64,000 bases of DNA from Actinomadura pelletieri DSM 43383. GTDB lineage: Bacteria > Actinomycetota > Actinomycetes > Streptosporangiales > Streptosporangiaceae. Below, one piece after another: positions 1 through 5,614 of the stretch. The first letter of the stretch is position 1; the number at the start of each line of letters is the position of its first letter. A model generated the notes under the pieces. It saw only the letters and a list, made by a program, of their open reading frames with translations. It did no database searches and was not told where the DNA came from. The position numbers were made by a program, and so were the translations under genes. The stretch is from positions 620,001 to 684,000 of the forward strand of contig NZ_RBWU01000003.1 in assembly GCF_003634705.1 (NCBI RefSeq), given 5' to 3'.

Positions 1-3
1 ACT

Positions 4-34
4 TGAGATGAACTCATACTGAGACTTACTCAGT
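4..34. promoter_or_regulatory. Twin inverted-repeat operator upstream of the NUDIX-regulator operon
   Basis: Two copies of the same inverted repeat stand side by side: TGAG-N5-CTCA at 4-16 and the extended ACTGAG-N5-CTCAGT at 18-34. The cores are 16 bp apart and end about 25 nt before the first start codon, a position suited to repression. The neighbouring first gene encodes a NUDIX protein with a predicted DNA-binding C-terminus, so autoregulation is the obvious inference. The repeats are directly visible; the identity of the binding protein is not shown. Confidence 0.55.
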
Positions 35-59
35 TCGAGAGTGACAGGAGGAGGCACGG

Positions 60-893
60 ATGACTCCGGATCCGGCGCGCGACGAGAGCGAGTTCCTCGC
101 GAACTATGACCCGCGCGACTACGACCCGGTCTCCGTGACGGTGGACGTCGTCGCCCTCACCATCCGGGACGGAGCCCTGCACGTGCTGCTGGTGCGGCGC
201 GGGAACGCCCCGTACGCCGGGATGTGGGCGCTGCCGGGCGGTTTCGTCCAGGCGGGCGGGCCGCTCCAGGGCACCGACGCCGAGGACCTCAGCAACGCGG
301 CCGTCCGCGAACTCGCCGAGGAGACCGGACTCAGCGCCAAGGGCGGCGCGCTCGGCCGCATGCACCTGGAACAGCTCGCCACCTACGGCTCCCCCGGCCG
401 CGACCCGCGGATGCGCGTCATCTCCGTCGCCTACCTGGCGTTCGCGCCGGAGCTGCCCGACCCCGAGGCGGGCGGCGACGCCGCCGACGCGGCCTGGGTG
501 CCGGTCGACGCCCTCGGCCTCACCGAGTCCGGGGACCAGCGCCCGGGAACGACCCGCCGGCTGGCGTTCGACCACGCGCGGATCCTGTCGGACGGCCTGG
601 AGCGGGCGCGCGGCAAGCTCGAGTACACGCCGCTCGCCACCGCGTTCTGCGGCGCCGAGTTCACGATCCCGGAGCTGCGCGCGGTCTACGAGGCGGTGTG
701 GGGCGAGGAACTGCACGCCGGGAACTTCCACCGGAAGGTGCTGTCGGTGCCCGGGTTCGTGGAGAGCACCGGCGAGACGTCCGACCGTGGCGGGCGGCGC
801 GGCGGTCCGCGGCCCCGCCTGTACCGGGCCGGTGACGCCCGCCTCCTGCACCCCGCGCTGCTGCGGCCCAGCCGGGAGGAGGAGATCCGATGA
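60..893 (+). CDS. NUDIX-domain transcriptional regulator (NrtR-like)
   Basis: 277 aa. The N-terminal half is a NUDIX domain: the REL-AEETGL part of the box lies at residues 83-91 with a Glu at 75, and a short insertion follows the leading Gly-Gly (60-61). The C-terminal part (about 195-250, with an ELRAVYEAVWG...NFHRKVL pattern) resembles the winged-helix domain of NrtR-type regulators, which sense ADP-ribose-like nucleotides and repress NAD-metabolism genes. The ATG is preceded by AGGAGG at good spacing, and the twin inverted repeat at 4-34 is a likely own operator. First gene of a five-gene operon; its stop overlaps the next start (ATGA). The REUxEE core is intact, so hydrolytic activity is possible. 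Ligand and targets are unknown. Confidence 0.85.
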   Translation: MTPDPARDESEFLANYDPRDYDPVSVTVDVVALTIRDGALHVLLVRRGNAPYAGMWALPGGFVQAGGPLQGTDAEDLSNAAVRELAEETGLSAKGGALGRMHLEQLATYGSPGRDPRMRVISVAYLAFAPELPDPEAGGDAADAAWVPVDALGLTESGDQRPGTTRRLAFDHARILSDGLERARGKLEYTPLATAFCGAEFTIPELRAVYEAVWGEELHAGNFHRKVLSVPGFVESTGETSDRGGRRGGPRPRLYRAGDARLLHPALLRPSREEEIR

Positions 894-1918
894 ACGACCG
901 GGCGCTCGACGACGCGCTGGCGCGGCTCGACCGGGTGCGCGTCCCCGCCGACCTGTTCGGGGAGGACGAGGTCGAGGCGGCGCGGCGGTACCGGCGGCTG
1001 GCGCGGCTCGTCCACCCCGACGCGACCGGCGGCCGCACCCGCGACGCGTTCGTCAGGCTGAACGCGCTGTGGCGCGCCTACACCCGAGACGACACCACCA
1101 CGATCACGACCCGCCGCCACGCCTACCGGCTCGACGGCGACGCGATCGGCGGCGACCTCGCCGAGCTGTACACGGCGATCCCGGACGCCGGGGGGAGCGC
1201 CGTGCTGCTGAAGATGCCGCGCGACCCCCGCGACGGTGACCTGCTGGAACGCGAGGCCGAGGCACTGCGGCAACTCTCCCGGGACGGCGACGAACGGTTC
1301 CTGCCGTACGTGCCGTGCCTGATCGAGTCGTTCCGGCACCGGGACGCCTCGACGGGCGCGCAGCGGCAGGTCAACGTGATCGCCGCGCTGGACGGCTGCC
1401 ACACCCTGACCGAGGTTCGGCGGGCGTTCCCGGACGGCCTCGACCCCCGCGACGCGGCCTGGATGTGGCGGCGGCTGCTCGTCGCCCTCGGGTTCGCGCA
1501 CCGGGCCGGCGTGCTGCACGGCGCCGTCCTGCCCGACCATGTGCTCATCCACCCGGAGAAGCACGGGCTCGTCCTGGTCGACTGGTGCTACTCCGTTCCC
1601 GGCCGGCACGCGACCGACGGGGCCGCCCGCGTCCCGGCGATGGTCGACCGTTACGCCGACCGGTACCCGCCGGAGGTGCCGGGACGGCAGGCGGCCGGCC
1701 CGGCCACCGACATCTTCATGGCCACCCGCTGCATGCTCGACCTGATGGGCGACAAGGCCCCGAAGGCGATGCGCACCTTCGCGCGCGGCTGCCTGCTCCC
1801 CGCGCGGAACCGGCGCCCCTCGGACGCCTGGCGCCTGCTGGCCGAACTGGACGAGCTGCTGGCGCGGCTCTACGGCCCGCGGCGTTTCCGCCCCTTCCAC
1901 CTGCCCACCGCACACTGA
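890..1918 (+). CDS. J-domain plus protein-kinase-like (probable pseudokinase) protein
   Basis: 342 aa. Residues about 28-65 form a J-domain-like helix pair with an intact HPD tripeptide (42-44), the signature by which DnaJ proteins stimulate Hsp70. Residues about 80-330 look like a Ser/Thr-kinase fold: a Lys in VLLK (108) and an acidic helix after it are present, but the catalytic-loop HRD reads HGA (210-212), the usual Asn position is His, and DFG reads DWC (231-233). Loss of the catalytic Asp argues for a pseudokinase or nucleotide-binding scaffold. It overlaps the upstream gene by 4 nt with its own GGGAGGAGG site and is followed after 10 nt by a vWA gene. Function is not established. Confidence 0.7.
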   Translation: MNDRALDDALARLDRVRVPADLFGEDEVEAARRYRRLARLVHPDATGGRTRDAFVRLNALWRAYTRDDTTTITTRRHAYRLDGDAIGGDLAELYTAIPDAGGSAVLLKMPRDPRDGDLLEREAEALRQLSRDGDERFLPYVPCLIESFRHRDASTGAQRQVNVIAALDGCHTLTEVRRAFPDGLDPRDAAWMWRRLLVALGFAHRAGVLHGAVLPDHVLIHPEKHGLVLVDWCYSVPGRHATDGAARVPAMVDRYADRYPPEVPGRQAAGPATDIFMATRCMLDLMGDKAPKAMRTFARGCLLPARNRRPSDAWRLLAELDELLARLYGPRRFRPFHLPTAH

Positions 1919-1928
1919 GGAGACGACC

Positions 1929-2900
1929 ATGGGAAGCGGACACTGGTCCACCGACGTCTACGCCGCGCGCGCCAGCTACCGCGCGTCCACCGGCGCCAGC
2001 GCGTTCGCCTACTCCGACGGCGGCGCCACCACCGTCCACGCCGACCTGGACCCGTCCGGGGTGACCGTCCGGGAGAGCCGGGACTCCGACGACCACCCCG
2101 AATCACTGGCGATCGGCGTCCTGTTCGACGTGACCGGCTCGATGCGGAGGGTGCCGCGGACGCTCCAGTCCAGGCTGCCCGACCTGCTCGGACTGCTGCT
2201 GCGCAAGGGATACGTCGAGCACCCGCACATCCTGTTCGGCGCGATCGGCGACGCGACCTGCGACCGGGCGCCCCTCCAGATCGGCCAGTTCGAGGCCGAC
2301 AACCGGATGGAGGACGACCTCGGCAAGATCCTCCTCGAGGGCGGGGGCGGCGGTCAGATGACCGAGTCCTACGAGCTGGCCCTGTACTTCATGGCCCGGC
2401 ACACCGCGATCGACTGCTTCGAGAAGCGCGGACGGCGCGGCTACCTGTTCATGATCGGTGACGAGCTGGCGTACCCGAAGGTCAAGCGGCACGAGGTCGC
2501 GAACGTCATCGGCGACGAACTGCGGGCGGACATTCCGGTCGCCAAAATCGTCCGCGAGGTCCAGCGGATGTACGACGTGTACTACATCATCCCGGAGGGG
2601 GCCTACCACGCCGGCAGCCGCGAGCTGAAGGACTTCTGGCACGACCTGCTCGGCCAGAACGTGATCTACCTGGACGATCTCGACGCCGTGTCCGAGACGA
2701 TCGCGCTGACGGTCGGGCTGGGCGAGGACGCCATCGATCTCGGGGAGGGCCTGGACCACCTGGCGGAGACCGGTTCGGACGCGGGCGCGTCGGTGTCGCG
2801 GGCGCTGGCCCGGCTGGACGCGTCCCGGGCACCCGTCGCGGTGTCGTCCACGCCTCCCGGGCTGGACGGCTCGCGCCCGTCGTCGACCACGCGCCTCTGA
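1929..2900 (+). CDS. von Willebrand factor A domain protein
   Basis: 323 aa. After a 60-residue N-terminal extension, the strand LAIGVLFD runs into DVTGSM (67-72), which matches the metal-ion-dependent adhesion site pattern D-x-S/T-x-S (D67, T69, S71). The domain extends to about residue 255 (FMIGDELAYP, VYYIIPEGAYH, IYLDDLDAV); the last 60 residues are low-complexity. No signal peptide or membrane segment, so it is cytoplasmic. vWA proteins of this kind usually act as metal-dependent protein-binding platforms, often together with kinases or chaperones; here it sits directly between a J-domain pseudokinase and a PurA-like enzyme. Start ATG has a GAGGAG site overlapping the preceding stop. Confidence 0.75.
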   Translation: MGSGHWSTDVYAARASYRASTGASAFAYSDGGATTVHADLDPSGVTVRESRDSDDHPESLAIGVLFDVTGSMRRVPRTLQSRLPDLLGLLLRKGYVEHPHILFGAIGDATCDRAPLQIGQFEADNRMEDDLGKILLEGGGGGQMTESYELALYFMARHTAIDCFEKRGRRGYLFMIGDELAYPKVKRHEVANVIGDELRADIPVAKIVREVQRMYDVYYIIPEGAYHAGSRELKDFWHDLLGQNVIYLDDLDAVSETIALTVGLGEDAIDLGEGLDHLAETGSDAGASVSRALARLDASRAPVAVSSTPPGLDGSRPSSTTRL

Positions 2901-2902
2901 CC

Positions 2903-4225
2903 ATGGACCACGTGATCGTCGTCGACCTCGGCTTCGGGGACGCGGGCAAGGGCACGGTCGTCGACCACCTGTGCTCGGCGAACCCTCCCTCCCTGGGCGG
3001 ACGACCCTCCGGTCAGAGAGGGGTGAAGGCCGTCGTCCGGTTCAACGGCGGCGCCCAGGCGGCGCACAACGTCGTGACCCCGGACGGACGCCACCACACG
3101 TTCGCCCAGTTCGGGTCGGGGACGTTCACACCGGGCGTCCGGACGCACCTGTCGCGGTTCATGCTCGTCGACCCGCTGGCGCTCGCCGCCGAGGCCGACC
3201 ACCTCCGGGAGGTCGGCGTCGGCGACGCCCTGGACCGGCTGACCGTCGACCACGACGCCCTGCTGACGACGCCGTACCATCGGGCCGCGAACCGCGCGCG
3301 GGAGTCCGCGCGCGGCGCGGCACGCCACGGGTCGTGCGGCATGGGCATCGGGGAGACCGCGTCCTACGCGCTCGCGCACGACGACGCGCCCCGGGTCGGC
3401 GACTGCCGGTCACCGGCGCGGCTGCGGCGGCGGCTGGCCGCGCTGCGCGACTGGTACCGCGACACGTTCCCGTCCGGCGCCCGCGTCCCGGACGTCGACG
3501 CCTGCGTGGACGCGTTCACCGCCTTCGGCGACCGCGTCGAGATCGTCGGCGGCGACCACCTGCGGCGCCTGCTCCACGCCGGGACCGTGGTGTTCGAGGG
3601 CGCGCAGGGCGTCCTGCTGGACGAGTGGCACGGCTTCCACCCGTACACGACGTGGTCGACGACCACGTTCGCCAACGCGGAGACGCTGCTGGCGGAGGCG
3701 GGCGGGGCCGCGGCGCGGCTCGGGGTGCTGCGCGCGTACGCGACCCGCCACGGCCCCGGCCCGTTCGTGACCGAGGACCCGGCGCTGACCGCGGACCTGC
3801 CCGACCCGCACAACGCCGCGGGCCGCTGGCAGGGCGCCTTCCGCGTCGGCCATCTCGACGCGGTCGCGCTCCGCTACGCGCTGGACGTGACGGGCGGTGT
3901 GGACGGCCTCGCGGTCACGCATCTGGACGTCGCGGGGGCGCGTCCGGACCTGCGGATCTGCGAGGCCTACACCATCGGCGGCGAACGGGTCGGGCGTCTG
4001 GAGACCGGGCCGCCCGACCTGGACAGGCAGGCCGCCCTCACCCGCCTCCTGCGTACCGCCCGTCCCGTCTACGCGTCGCTCGGACGCGCGGACGAGACGA
4101 TCGAGGACGTGCTGGAGACCCCGGTCGTCCTCCGCTCCTTCGGCCCCACCTCGGCCGACAAGACGATTCGGCCGCTACGGGAACGGGACCCTGCGTCGGC
4201 GGGCGCCGGCACCGACCTGACATGA
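2903..4225 (+). CDS. Divergent adenylosuccinate-synthetase-like (PurA-like) enzyme
   Basis: 440 aa, alignable by eye along the whole PurA length. The P-loop GDAGKG (12-17) keeps the catalytic Asp13, NGG-x5-H keeps the catalytic His (55), and FEGAQG and DAVALRYAL are clear. Several positions normally fixed in PurA differ: the TGRGIG region reads SCGMGIG (144-150), losing the Arg; the aspartate-binding loop GATTGRxRR reads NAAGRWQ (304-310); and the guanine motif TKLD reads THLD (339-342). The ligation mechanism (phosphorylated purine-like intermediate plus an amine) may be kept while the amine or base acceptor changed. The operon setting also argues against housekeeping PurA. It starts 2 nt after the vWA gene. 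Confidence 0.75.
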   Translation: MDHVIVVDLGFGDAGKGTVVDHLCSANPPSLGGRPSGQRGVKAVVRFNGGAQAAHNVVTPDGRHHTFAQFGSGTFTPGVRTHLSRFMLVDPLALAAEADHLREVGVGDALDRLTVDHDALLTTPYHRAANRARESARGAARHGSCGMGIGETASYALAHDDAPRVGDCRSPARLRRRLAALRDWYRDTFPSGARVPDVDACVDAFTAFGDRVEIVGGDHLRRLLHAGTVVFEGAQGVLLDEWHGFHPYTTWSTTTFANAETLLAEAGGAAARLGVLRAYATRHGPGPFVTEDPALTADLPDPHNAAGRWQGAFRVGHLDAVALRYALDVTGGVDGLAVTHLDVAGARPDLRICEAYTIGGERVGRLETGPPDLDRQAALTRLLRTARPVYASLGRADETIEDVLETPVVLRSFGPTSADKTIRPLRERDPASAGAGTDLT

Positions 4226-4232
4226 TCGGGAC

Positions 4233-4937
4233 ATGCTTCAGGTCTGCCCGAACGGACGCCGGACCGAGGGCGTACCCGTCTCGCCGGAGGAGATCGCGGT
4301 CGCGGTCCGCGCCGCCGTCGACGTCGGCGCGCAGGACGCGCACGTGCATCCGCGGGACGACACGGGCGCCGACACCGTGGACCCGGTCCATGTCGCCGCC
4401 GCCGTCGACGCCGTGCGCGCGTCGACACCGTCCATCCAGATCGGGGTGACCACCGGCGCGTGGACGACGCCCGACCCGATCGAACGCGCCGCCCAGATCC
4501 GCGCCTGGACCGTCCTGCCCGACCACGCGTCGGTGAACTTCCACGAGGACGGCGCCGACCTCGTCGCCGAGGCGCTCTTCGAACGCGGCGTCGCCATCGA
4601 GGCCGGGATCTTCTCCGGCACCGACGGCGCCGAACGGTTCCTGCGCTGGCCGCACGCCCACCATGTGCTGCGGGTCCTCGCCGAGGTCACCGACCCCGAC
4701 CCGGAGACGGCGACCGGGACGGCGAAGGCCCTGCTGCACGACCTCGGCACCCGGCACGGCCGTCCGGTCCTGTTGCACGGGGAGGACGGCGGCGCGTGGC
4801 CCGTCCTGCGGCTCGCCGTCCGGCTGAACCTGGACGTCCGTATCGGGCTGGAGGACACGCTCGTCCTTCCCGATGGGGCGCCCGCCGCCGACAACGCCGC
4901 CCTCGTCCAGACCGCCCGGGCCCTGCTCACTCCCTGA
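4233..4937 (+). CDS. Short BKACE (DUF849)-family protein
   Basis: 234 aa. The segment DAHVHPRDDTG (35-45) carries the His-x-His-x-Arg metal/substrate motif of beta-keto acid cleavage enzymes, and IGLEDTLVLPDG near residue 210 matches the conserved C-terminal barrel segment. BKACE enzymes use acetyl-CoA and zinc to split 3-keto acids; typical members have 270-310 residues, so this is a short variety whose N-terminus lacks the first barrel strand. It begins 7 nt after the PurA-like gene and is the last gene of the operon. The substrate is unknown; a role in the same pathway as the PurA-like enzyme is inference from position. Confidence 0.7.
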   Translation: MLQVCPNGRRTEGVPVSPEEIAVAVRAAVDVGAQDAHVHPRDDTGADTVDPVHVAAAVDAVRASTPSIQIGVTTGAWTTPDPIERAAQIRAWTVLPDHASVNFHEDGADLVAEALFERGVAIEAGIFSGTDGAERFLRWPHAHHVLRVLAEVTDPDPETATGTAKALLHDLGTRHGRPVLLHGEDGGAWPVLRLAVRLNLDVRIGLEDTLVLPDGAPAADNAALVQTARALLTP

Positions 4938-4950: not shown

Positions 4951-5565
4951 TCAGGAACGCGGATTCTGCCCGGCGTCGGCGTCCATCCGCGCCCAGTCGG
5001 CCTCCCACATCTCGTCCCGGTGCCGGTCGCAGCGTCGCCGGACGAGCAGGTAGGCGATCCCCAGCGGAATCGCCGCGCCGAGGACCGTCGCGGCGCCGGC
5101 GTAGGCGGCGTCGGTCACCGTGCGGCTGTGCGGGCGGGGACGGACGGTCGGGTCGCCCGACCGGTCGACCCAGATGACCCGTTGCGCGCCGACCTTGGCG
5201 TTCTTCCAGCTCGGCAGCGTTCCGGAGCGGACCTTGCCGTCCGGGGCCTGCCAGGAGGCCTGGACGGTCTCGTGGACGTACCGGTCACCGGACGTACCGA
5301 TCCCGCCCGTCGAGGTGACCGTCGCGACGACCTGGCGGCGGTCGGCGCGTTCGGCCTTCTCCGCGCGCATCCCCGCGTCATAGGACCAGGACCCGGTCAG
5401 GGCCGCCAGCGGCGGCGCCATGACGAGCAGCAGCATGAGCAGCGCGAACGCGATCGCCCGCTGCACGCGGTCGACCCGGCGGCGCAGCGCGTTGCGCTCC
5501 AGACCGAGCCGCCTGCGCGCCCTGACGAGCGGCGAGTCGCCGCGCCCGTTGCCGGACCTGCGCAC
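4951..5565 (-). CDS. Rv1733c-like two-helix membrane protein
   Basis: 204 aa. Layout matches the actinobacterial Rv1733c family: basic N-terminus, a membrane helix (about residues 28-50), an extracellular domain of about 90 residues with the ATVTSTGG / WVDRSG pattern, a second helix, and a basic tail (LLVRRRCDRHRD). I chose the GTG at 5565 because GGGGAGG sits 8 nt upstream; an in-frame GTG three codons earlier overlaps that site. Function of the family is unknown. The MFS gene upstream ends 40-50 nt before it on the same strand, so co-transcription is possible. Confidence 0.65.
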   Translation of the reverse strand: MRRSGNGRGDSPLVRARRRLGLERNALRRRVDRVQRAIAFALLMLLLVMAPPLAALTGSWSYDAGMRAEKAERADRRQVVATVTSTGGIGTSGDRYVHETVQASWQAPDGKVRSGTLPSWKNAKVGAQRVIWVDRSGDPTVRPRPHSRTVTDAAYAGAATVLGAAIPLGIAYLLVRRRCDRHRDEMWEADWARMDADAGQNPRS

Positions 5566-5614
5566 TTGCGTCACCTCCCCGGGGAGTTCCCTCCCGGCAA
5601 GAGGCCCTCAGCCT

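Follow-up and report, generated by a model that had tools for sequence, protein, structure and literature searches.

Several described systems resemble a gene cluster at the left end of the analysed DNA of Actinomadura pelletieri DSM 43383 (contig NZ_RBWU01000003.1; the whole stretch of 64,000 nucleotides, referred to below as the window, begins at C3:620001 in a genome of 7.5 Mb). This cluster encodes a NUDIX regulator, a J-domain pseudokinase, a vWA protein, a paralogue of the adenylosuccinate synthetase PurA and a BKACE-family protein. Papers are cited by their PMC accession. The conflict systems centred on ADP-ribosylglycohydrolase (ARG) combine an NrtR-like Nudix regulator with a vWA protein, predicted to be a peptide-binding chaperone; their enzymes are the ADP-ribosylglycohydrolase and phosphatases, and they occur in actinobacteria, planctomycetes and proteobacteria (PMC9503650). 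TerY-P triads consist of a vWA protein, a PP2C-like phosphatase and a kinase that carries a zinc ribbon or OB-fold at its C-terminus, and TerY-P-like modules act in phage defence (PMC11090510). PurZ of the 2-aminoadenine phages (S-2L, phiVC8) is a phage-borne PurA paralogue of altered specificity (PMC8342488). NrtR regulators of NAD metabolism join a NUDIX domain to the NrtR winged helix and have a repeated operator at their own operon.

The module under study shares the type of regulator, the vWA protein and the host range with the ARG-centred systems. It is rated as an operon of the conflict type described in PMC9503650, under Nudix control and with a chaperone-like vWA part, but with an enzyme core derived from PurA; the word 'adenylosuccinate' is absent from the main text of that paper as available. 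Neither an ARG gene nor a PP2C phosphatase gene was found among the Pfam-scanned neighbours of the module, which are a minority of all its neighbours. With TerY-P triads it has the vWA protein and a kinase-fold protein in common, and vWA-kinase and chaperone modules of Ter systems had been mentioned before; a close tie is not supported. The triad includes the PP2C-like phosphatase and the zinc-ribbon kinase (PMC11090510), whereas the kinase-like protein of the module carries an N-terminal J-domain and lacks the catalytic Asp. The module also differs from NrtR-controlled NAD operons, as no NAD gene lies in the actinobacterial operon and the chromosomal regulators keep R83, E84, E87 and E88. The favoured reading, a tentative one held at slightly less than an even chance, is that of a locally repressed, NAD/ADP-ribose-linked module which makes a modified purine nucleotide and is used by both hosts and phages. 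The earlier observation is correct for four of the five genes, and its interpretation is partly supported and right in spirit, stress induction and an unusual nucleotide being putative elements of it.

Related chromosomal loci were collected with six exact peptide patterns of the vWA protein, one genome being taken per species. This yielded 66 loci encoding vWA, mostly in Actinomadura, also in Thermomonospora, Nonomuraea, Nocardiopsis, Allonocardiopsis, Actinorugispora, Actinoplanes and Catellatospora, and on one planctomycete contig. Together with the locus of the window (L003) and L006 they make up 68 chromosomal loci, and the order NUDIX - pseudokinase - vWA - PurA is complete in 64 of them, as expected of the regulated conserved unit that had been proposed. 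The four exceptions lack one or two genes: L012, L038 and L070 lie at contig ends, and L044 is without the pseudokinase. Between adjacent genes, the median distances are -4 (n 62), 12 (n 65) and 3 nucleotides (n 51). In the window, all five open reading frames were found on the plus strand, overlapping or 2-10 nucleotides apart as the original prediction stated (a 4-nucleotide overlap, then 10, 2 and 7 nucleotides). In several actinobacterial families, NUDIX regulator, pseudokinase, vWA protein and PurA paralogue stand together as a unit. This unit is rare when the phylum is sampled evenly (2 of 396 genomes, one being that of the window) and patchy both in the family (43 of 150 genomes) and in the genus, where the own genome and G526 have it and G432, G480 and G505 do not. 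Among 20 further family loci (at least 3 repeats), the PurA gene is complete in 18, a C-terminal fragment in L129 and missing in L122; broken or split copies are L029, L069, L084 and L129.

Outside chromosomes, vWA was detected in 206 of 50,697 phage records (188 Mycobacterium, 10 Rhizobium, 6 Vibrio, 2 others), in 21 of 72,556 plasmid records and in 20 viral contigs. The carriers are Rhodococcus, Tsukamurella and proteobacterial plasmids, cluster C1 mycobacteriophages, Vibrio and Rhizobium phages, and viral contigs; the module has a wider spread and a higher mobility than the window alone could show. Profile scans of 101 loci, L003 and L006 included (near copies: L087/L091/L093, L097/L104, L099/L100), matched vWA in 101, the PurA-like protein in 98, the pseudokinase in 91, NUDIX in 76 and BKACE in 28. 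The PurA gene lies 3' of vWA, in the same orientation and at a distance of up to about 1.7 kb, and these two genes are thus not found apart in relatives. Three loci are without PurA, namely two that reach a contig end (88 and 219 bases past vWA) and Rhodovulum L103; a genuine vWA form without PurA was rejected, the cases being L103, L122, the fragment L129 and the two contig ends. The arrangement of the remaining genes varies. In phage Gizmo, kinase gp267, vWA gp268, a small gp269 and PurA-like gp270 follow one another; Rhodococcus and Tsukamurella plasmids have kinase - vWA - PurA - NUDIX, and in plasmids of Agrobacterium and Allorhizobium, kinase - vWA - PurA follow a divergently oriented NUDIX gene.

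These loci were collected through vWA, and separate checks were run from the PurA side. The PurA-like protein was matched in 225 phage records (189 Mycobacterium, 10 Rhizobium, 6 Vibrio, 20 others), some of which look like ordinary purA (Listeria, Salmonella, others); compared by genus, the phage sets obtained from the two sides are near-identical. Among the 60 matches listed of 89 PurA-like plasmid records, 16 have at least 34% identity and all of these are also vWA-positive, the Methylorubrum record being paired with its vWA match by organism only. The further PurA paralogues found in 41 family genomes (G408, G420 and G422:C65), considered as module PurA without vWA, score higher on the canonical than on the module profile and were discarded. 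The distances of vWA and PurA correlate over 28 thinned viral and plasmid loci (r 0.60; none of 2000 permutations as high). On account of the near-constant pairing, vWA and PurA are regarded as the core, NUDIX as the usual regulator and the pseudokinase as common but dispensable, with BKACE outside. No published description of a vWA + PurA-like unit was found in a search that covered few subscription journals and little of bioRxiv; it is not described in the available text of PMC7824862 and PMC7159879, and in that of PMC9476963 a kinase and a PurA-like gene of a C1 phage are merely listed.

The PurA paralogue shares the fold and P-loop of PurA and matches its Pfam family above cut-off (PF00709, 224 bits). 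The NCBIfam PurA equivalogs are not reached (174.1 versus 402 bits; 134.1 versus 395.55), and the module proteins form a clade separate from canonical PurA with an SH-aLRT support of 96, in a quick tree with long branches and an unsure place for PurZ (66 rows chosen from the proteins of the residue count). Residues were counted, in E. coli numbering, in 115 module proteins longer than 270 amino acids, near copies included, and in 31 canonical ones. D13, K16 and H41 are kept in 113/113 module proteins with letters at these positions, Q224, T239 and R272 in 115/115 and D333 in 108/110. In PurA, D13, H41 and Q224 act in O6 activation. Other positions are altered: N38 is Gln in 111/113; T129 is lost in 113/115 (Cys in 109); R131 is lost in all and R143 in 111/114, Arg being left in 3; V273 is His in 115/115; K331 is His in 101/109. 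In place of the canonical TTGRxRR loop stands GxWQGxFR, with T300 replaced in nearly all proteins, T301 by an aromatic residue in 112/115, G302 by Gln in 115/115, R303 lost in 114/115 (Gly in 113) and R305 lost in 115/115, both arginines being kept in 31/31 canonical proteins.

R303 of PurA contacts O2' of IMP and aspartate; in PurZ, a loop makes contact with aspartate, the base pocket is lined by T132 and V241, and the alpha-phosphate is paired with R146 from the other subunit (PMC8342488). By way of the phiVC8 row, T132, V241 and R146 of S-2L PurZ would correspond to T129, V273 and R143 of E. coli PurA. The available text of PMC6136348 yielded no PurA residue roles. Since the residues for aspartate, ribose and 5'-phosphate are changed, ordinary adenylosuccinate synthesis by the paralogue is unlikely; the pattern reads as one in which the activation chemistry is kept and the amino donor and the nucleotide handle are changed. 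The original prediction had named proof of an ordinary adenylosuccinate synthetase as fatal to it, and equivalog scores and residue changes place the protein apart as a paralogue.

An additional adenylosuccinate synthetase could still be envisaged, supplying the AMP precursor from IMP and so restoring adenine nucleotides, or clearing IMP or inosine, under stress or infection. The clear homology to PurA and the kept D13, K16, H41 and Q224 agree with this, and such an enzyme would lean on the PurB of the host, consistent with the lack of any PF00206 match in 16 phage and virus records, some of them fragments. This explanation is nevertheless unlikely in view of the replaced T300, T301, R303 and R305 and the invariant His at 273, and also because an ordinary purA is already at hand: a second PurA match besides the module occurs in 41/41 family genomes, with a score of 580-620 bits in 40 of them and as two partial matches (375 and 300 bits) in the 41st, G409.

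The paralogue matches phrog_1211 (E 1.4e-78), and phage annotation and PHROGs label it '2-aminooxy adenylosuccinate synthetase'. Along with its occurrence in phages, this label would suit an enzyme like PurZ, serving 2-aminoadenine or a similar modified base in DNA. However, PurZ of phiVC8 has Ser at position 13, where the module proteins keep Asp, which makes the label doubtful; phiVC8 PurZ retains T129, R143 and V273, which are changed in the module, the PurZ model gives 27.7 bits at a cut-off of 300, and the gene is also frequent on chromosomes and plasmids of bacteria. No vWA or kinase is annotated beside PurZ in phiVC8, the hypothetical proteins of this phage lying outside the look-up. 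The PurZ reading was rejected on the basis of D13 and the missing Ser13 signature, and is very improbable.

According to another view, the paralogue would merely bind a nucleotide, as a sensor or scaffold with vWA. The changed substrate pocket and the neighbouring pseudokinase fit such a pseudo-enzyme, which is distinctly improbable in the light of the P-loop Lys, Asp13, His41 and Gln224: unlike the catalytic Asp of the pseudokinase, these are invariant, in rows with letters, across very divergent members.

The partner of the PurA paralogue, the vWA protein, has no match in Pfam or NCBIfam, and a profile of its sequence against solved structures gave at best an unrelated enzyme (E 0.35), so that a relative was found through the model only. 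AlphaFold2 models of this protein and of the pseudokinase were built from alignments of related loci. The vWA model (mean predicted local distance difference test, pLDDT, 87.6) is closest to an integrin beta I domain (Z 15.7, root-mean-square deviation (rmsd) 4.1, 206 aligned residues). In the metal site DxTxS, D67 and S71 are present in every row with letters and T69 in all but one (Ser); the motifs EGGGGG(Q/N)xxESY and GDE are largely kept. The protein matches phrog_2971 (E 7.7e-64), and the vWA protein of Actinomadura spongiicola, the closest named relative found, is 95% identical to it.

The model of the second protein (mean pLDDT 93.6) has a kinase fold at residues 69-325 of 342, almost to the C-terminus, with PknB as a structural match (Z 25.1, rmsd 2.0, 228 aligned). 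The protein also matches phrog_3043, labelled 'kinase' (E 8e-44). The J-domain at its N-terminus was recognized by profile comparison with solved DnaJ domains (RabJ E 7.9e-8, DnaJ 1.9e-5); Pfam DnaJ stays below cut-off (16.4 versus 27.8 bits), and the kinase family match is also weak. HRD is replaced by HGA and DFG by DWC in the window. The catalytic Asp of HRD is kept in 0/91 pseudokinases and the beta3 Lys with its Glu in 83 of 91; the HPD of the J-domain is present in 80/91 (64/67 on chromosomes). An active kinase or a TerY-P switch was ruled out, as the catalytic Asp is missing in 91/91. Ten family loci (L112-L121) have the order NUDIX - vWA - PurA without a pseudokinase gene and with an unchanged operator, and the pseudokinase is therefore dispensable. 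At its usual place directly before vWA, Vibrio and Rhizobium phages carry a protein of 237-263 amino acids (L099:5216-5935, L100:5217-5930, L101:4777-5568), without a Pfam match in the L099 and L101 copies, which is perhaps a diverged pseudokinase. On the Phycisphaerales contig L070 (1299-3811), a kinase-like protein in which a zinc-ribbon-like CxxC pair replaces the J-domain is followed by vWA; the contig stops 219 bases past the latter.

Delivery of a client by vWA and the J-domain pseudokinase is the basis of a further explanation: an amino group of this client would take the place of aspartate, and the paralogue would join a purine nucleotide to the protein. The changed aspartate pocket next to kept activation residues, the near-constant vWA partner and the frequent HPD are in line with such a ligase, which is all the same decidedly unlikely given that the pseudokinase is absent from L112-L121 and that the client or acceptor is only hypothetical. 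We know of no precedent for a protein-modifying ligase in the PurA fold.

The regulator combines a NUDIX domain with the NrtR winged helix, both Pfam matches being over cut-off (Table 1), and has 3gz5 as its best match among solved structures; the NrtR equivalog NF050029 is not reached (116.6 bits, cut-off 400). In the Nudix motif, R83, E84, E87 and E88 are kept in 65/65 chromosomal rows with letters and G90 in 63, and E88 is Lys in 7/10 plasmid and viral proteins. Upstream of the gene, a sigma70-like promoter, read by eye, runs into two or three CTCA-N4-GAG units 16 bp apart. In the locus of the window, the -35/-10 boxes (TGGACA-17-TACGTT) lie just upstream of its first base. The operator-like repeats reported before are real but amount to three units rather than a pair, the first one beginning at C3:619997, 4 bases before the window, and being cut by its edge. 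Of the ribosome sites, said to be clear throughout, those before genes 1-3 are, whereas the PurA paralogue has none obvious and BKACE a weak one.

Two units match at 13 or 14 of 14 positions in 80/83 upstream regions, and three at 19-21 of 21 positions in 41 of the 83; mononucleotide shuffles (100 per region) gave at most 12/14 for two units. Three regions are duplicates (L123=L052, L125=L071, L126=L064), which leaves the operator in 77/80 distinct regions; it was missed in those of L012, L057 and L122. With one mismatch allowed, the own genome (15 contigs, 97% complete) holds the double unit at this sole place, and the pattern read backwards, as a control, has 1 match there; the regulator therefore seems to serve just its own operon. 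In L071, upstream of 5075, the operator is extended to an 18-bp perfect inverted repeat, GTTGTTCTCAGATAGAGA-AAA-TCTCTATCTGAGAACAAC. Rhodococcus and Tsukamurella plasmids have another palindrome directly before the kinase gene (TTTTAGTC-N5-GACTAAAA; TATTTCTAGTC-N5-GACTAGAAATA), Agrobacterium has a similar half-site (TTAGAC-N9-GTCTAA), and the region before NUDIX in L080 and L081 showed no inverted repeat.

A link of the module to NAD and ADP-ribose is favoured by the adjacency of NAD genes in viruses together with the NrtR-type regulator. In the viral contigs L080 (2562-9606) and L081, the genes for an NrtR-like NUDIX protein, NAMPT/NAPRTase (0.3 kb before vWA), vWA, PurA, the pseudokinase and a PF01467 nucleotidyltransferase (NMNAT matches weak) follow one another; this six-gene run is a virus-borne NAD-salvage unit joined with the vWA-PurA module. 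L085 has NAPRTase 3.9 kb before vWA, and L084 a NAPRTase remnant. In Vibrio phages (L099, L100), a NADAR gene precedes vWA by about 1 kb, and PurA is followed by genes for a TROVE protein and an Rv2179c-like exonuclease; Rhizobium phage RHph_Y65 has genes for HAD, PRTase and NUDIX proteins upstream. Anywhere in 24 virus records, NAPRTase occurs in 5 and NADAR in 9. According to PMC9503650, 22% of medium-sized phages and 33% of the jumbo ones have NadV; because of this frequency, presence alone means little and adjacency means more.

The favoured NAD/ADP-ribose-linked module could operate as follows. The NrtR-like NUDIX protein would repress the operon and release it on binding a ligand of the ADP-ribose/NAD type. 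At the expense of GTP, the PurA paralogue would then activate a purine nucleotide that is not plain IMP at its 6-position, to which it may attach an amine different from free aspartate. The vWA protein would hold the enzyme or its client via the metal site, and the J-domain pseudokinase could link it to Hsp70, or tune it. Phages and bacteria would exploit either the product or the depletion of the substrate in a conflict or stress centred on NAD and ADP-ribose. A more specific form of this proposal, possible but rather unlikely, is a PurA-fold ligase with vWA as obligate partner, which would join a non-aspartate amine to the 6-position of an NAD/ADP-ribose-type, or a protein- or RNA-bound, nucleotide to give an N6-modified adenine cofactor or signal in NAD-centred conflict between phage and host. 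For the NAD/ADP-ribose-type substrate, a 5'-phosphate buried in a diphosphate would account for the changed phosphate and ribose contacts.

Several points weigh against the favoured reading. A minority of viral lineages have NAD genes next to the module; NAPRTase has no match in 19/24 virus records (some of them fragments), and among the few scanned neighbours of the operon on chromosomes, none is an NAD gene. NUDIX is absent from the profile matches in 25/101 loci, mostly viral. Columns 299-305 of the PurA alignment belong to a loop of variable length, whose pairing depends on the alignment, and the residue roles lean on one PurZ paper and on general background.

The features at this end of the window are listed in Table 1. 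The domain names given earlier to all five proteins hold by Pfam, profile searches and structure models, and the one assignment that fell is the membership of BKACE. This gene is near the module in 28/68 chromosomal loci (26 Actinomadura, 1 Thermomonospora and 1 Actinoplanes, on the opposite strand); it was rejected as a component, being directly behind PurA in just 4, and is a loose neighbour outside the conserved unit. A protein of about 660 amino acids is encoded near the module in 28 Actinomadura loci (e.g., L010:5060-7042), in 20 of them between module and BKACE; the one copy scanned has no Pfam family.

Table 1. Positions of the module, its operator and adjacent genes, counted from the first base of the window.
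Feature	Position	Strand	Basis
Operator, three CTCA-N4-GAG units 16 bp apart	-3..7, 13-23, 29-39	+	Genome and upstream-region pattern scans
NUDIX + NrtR-type winged helix gene, local transcription regulator	60-893	+	PF00293 70.6 bits, PF21906 46.8 bits
J-domain + pseudokinase fusion gene	890-1918	+	Model fold, J-domain profile, phrog_3043
vWA gene, DxTxS metal-site motif, core component	1929-2900	+	AlphaFold2 model, phrog_2971
PurA paralogue gene, altered substrate pocket, core component	2903-4225	+	PF00709, residue counts, phrog_1211
BKACE-family gene, neighbour outside the conserved unit	4233-4937	+	PF05853 92 bits
Rv1733c-family gene, convergent with the operon end	4951-5574	-	138.7 bits, cut-off 80

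The module provides a common context for phrog_1211, phrog_2971 and phrog_3043, one of them without a function and two with doubtful labels. Its best-sampled carriers are the cluster C1 mycobacteriophages, which grow on M. smegmatis and make the module testable. The more specific ligase proposed above, if true, would be a new reaction in the PurA family and the base of a new class of conflict module. The rebuilt amino-donor pocket and the tie to vWA over bacteria, plasmids and unrelated phages point to a possibly new nucleotide reaction, which may matter in contests between phages and their hosts.

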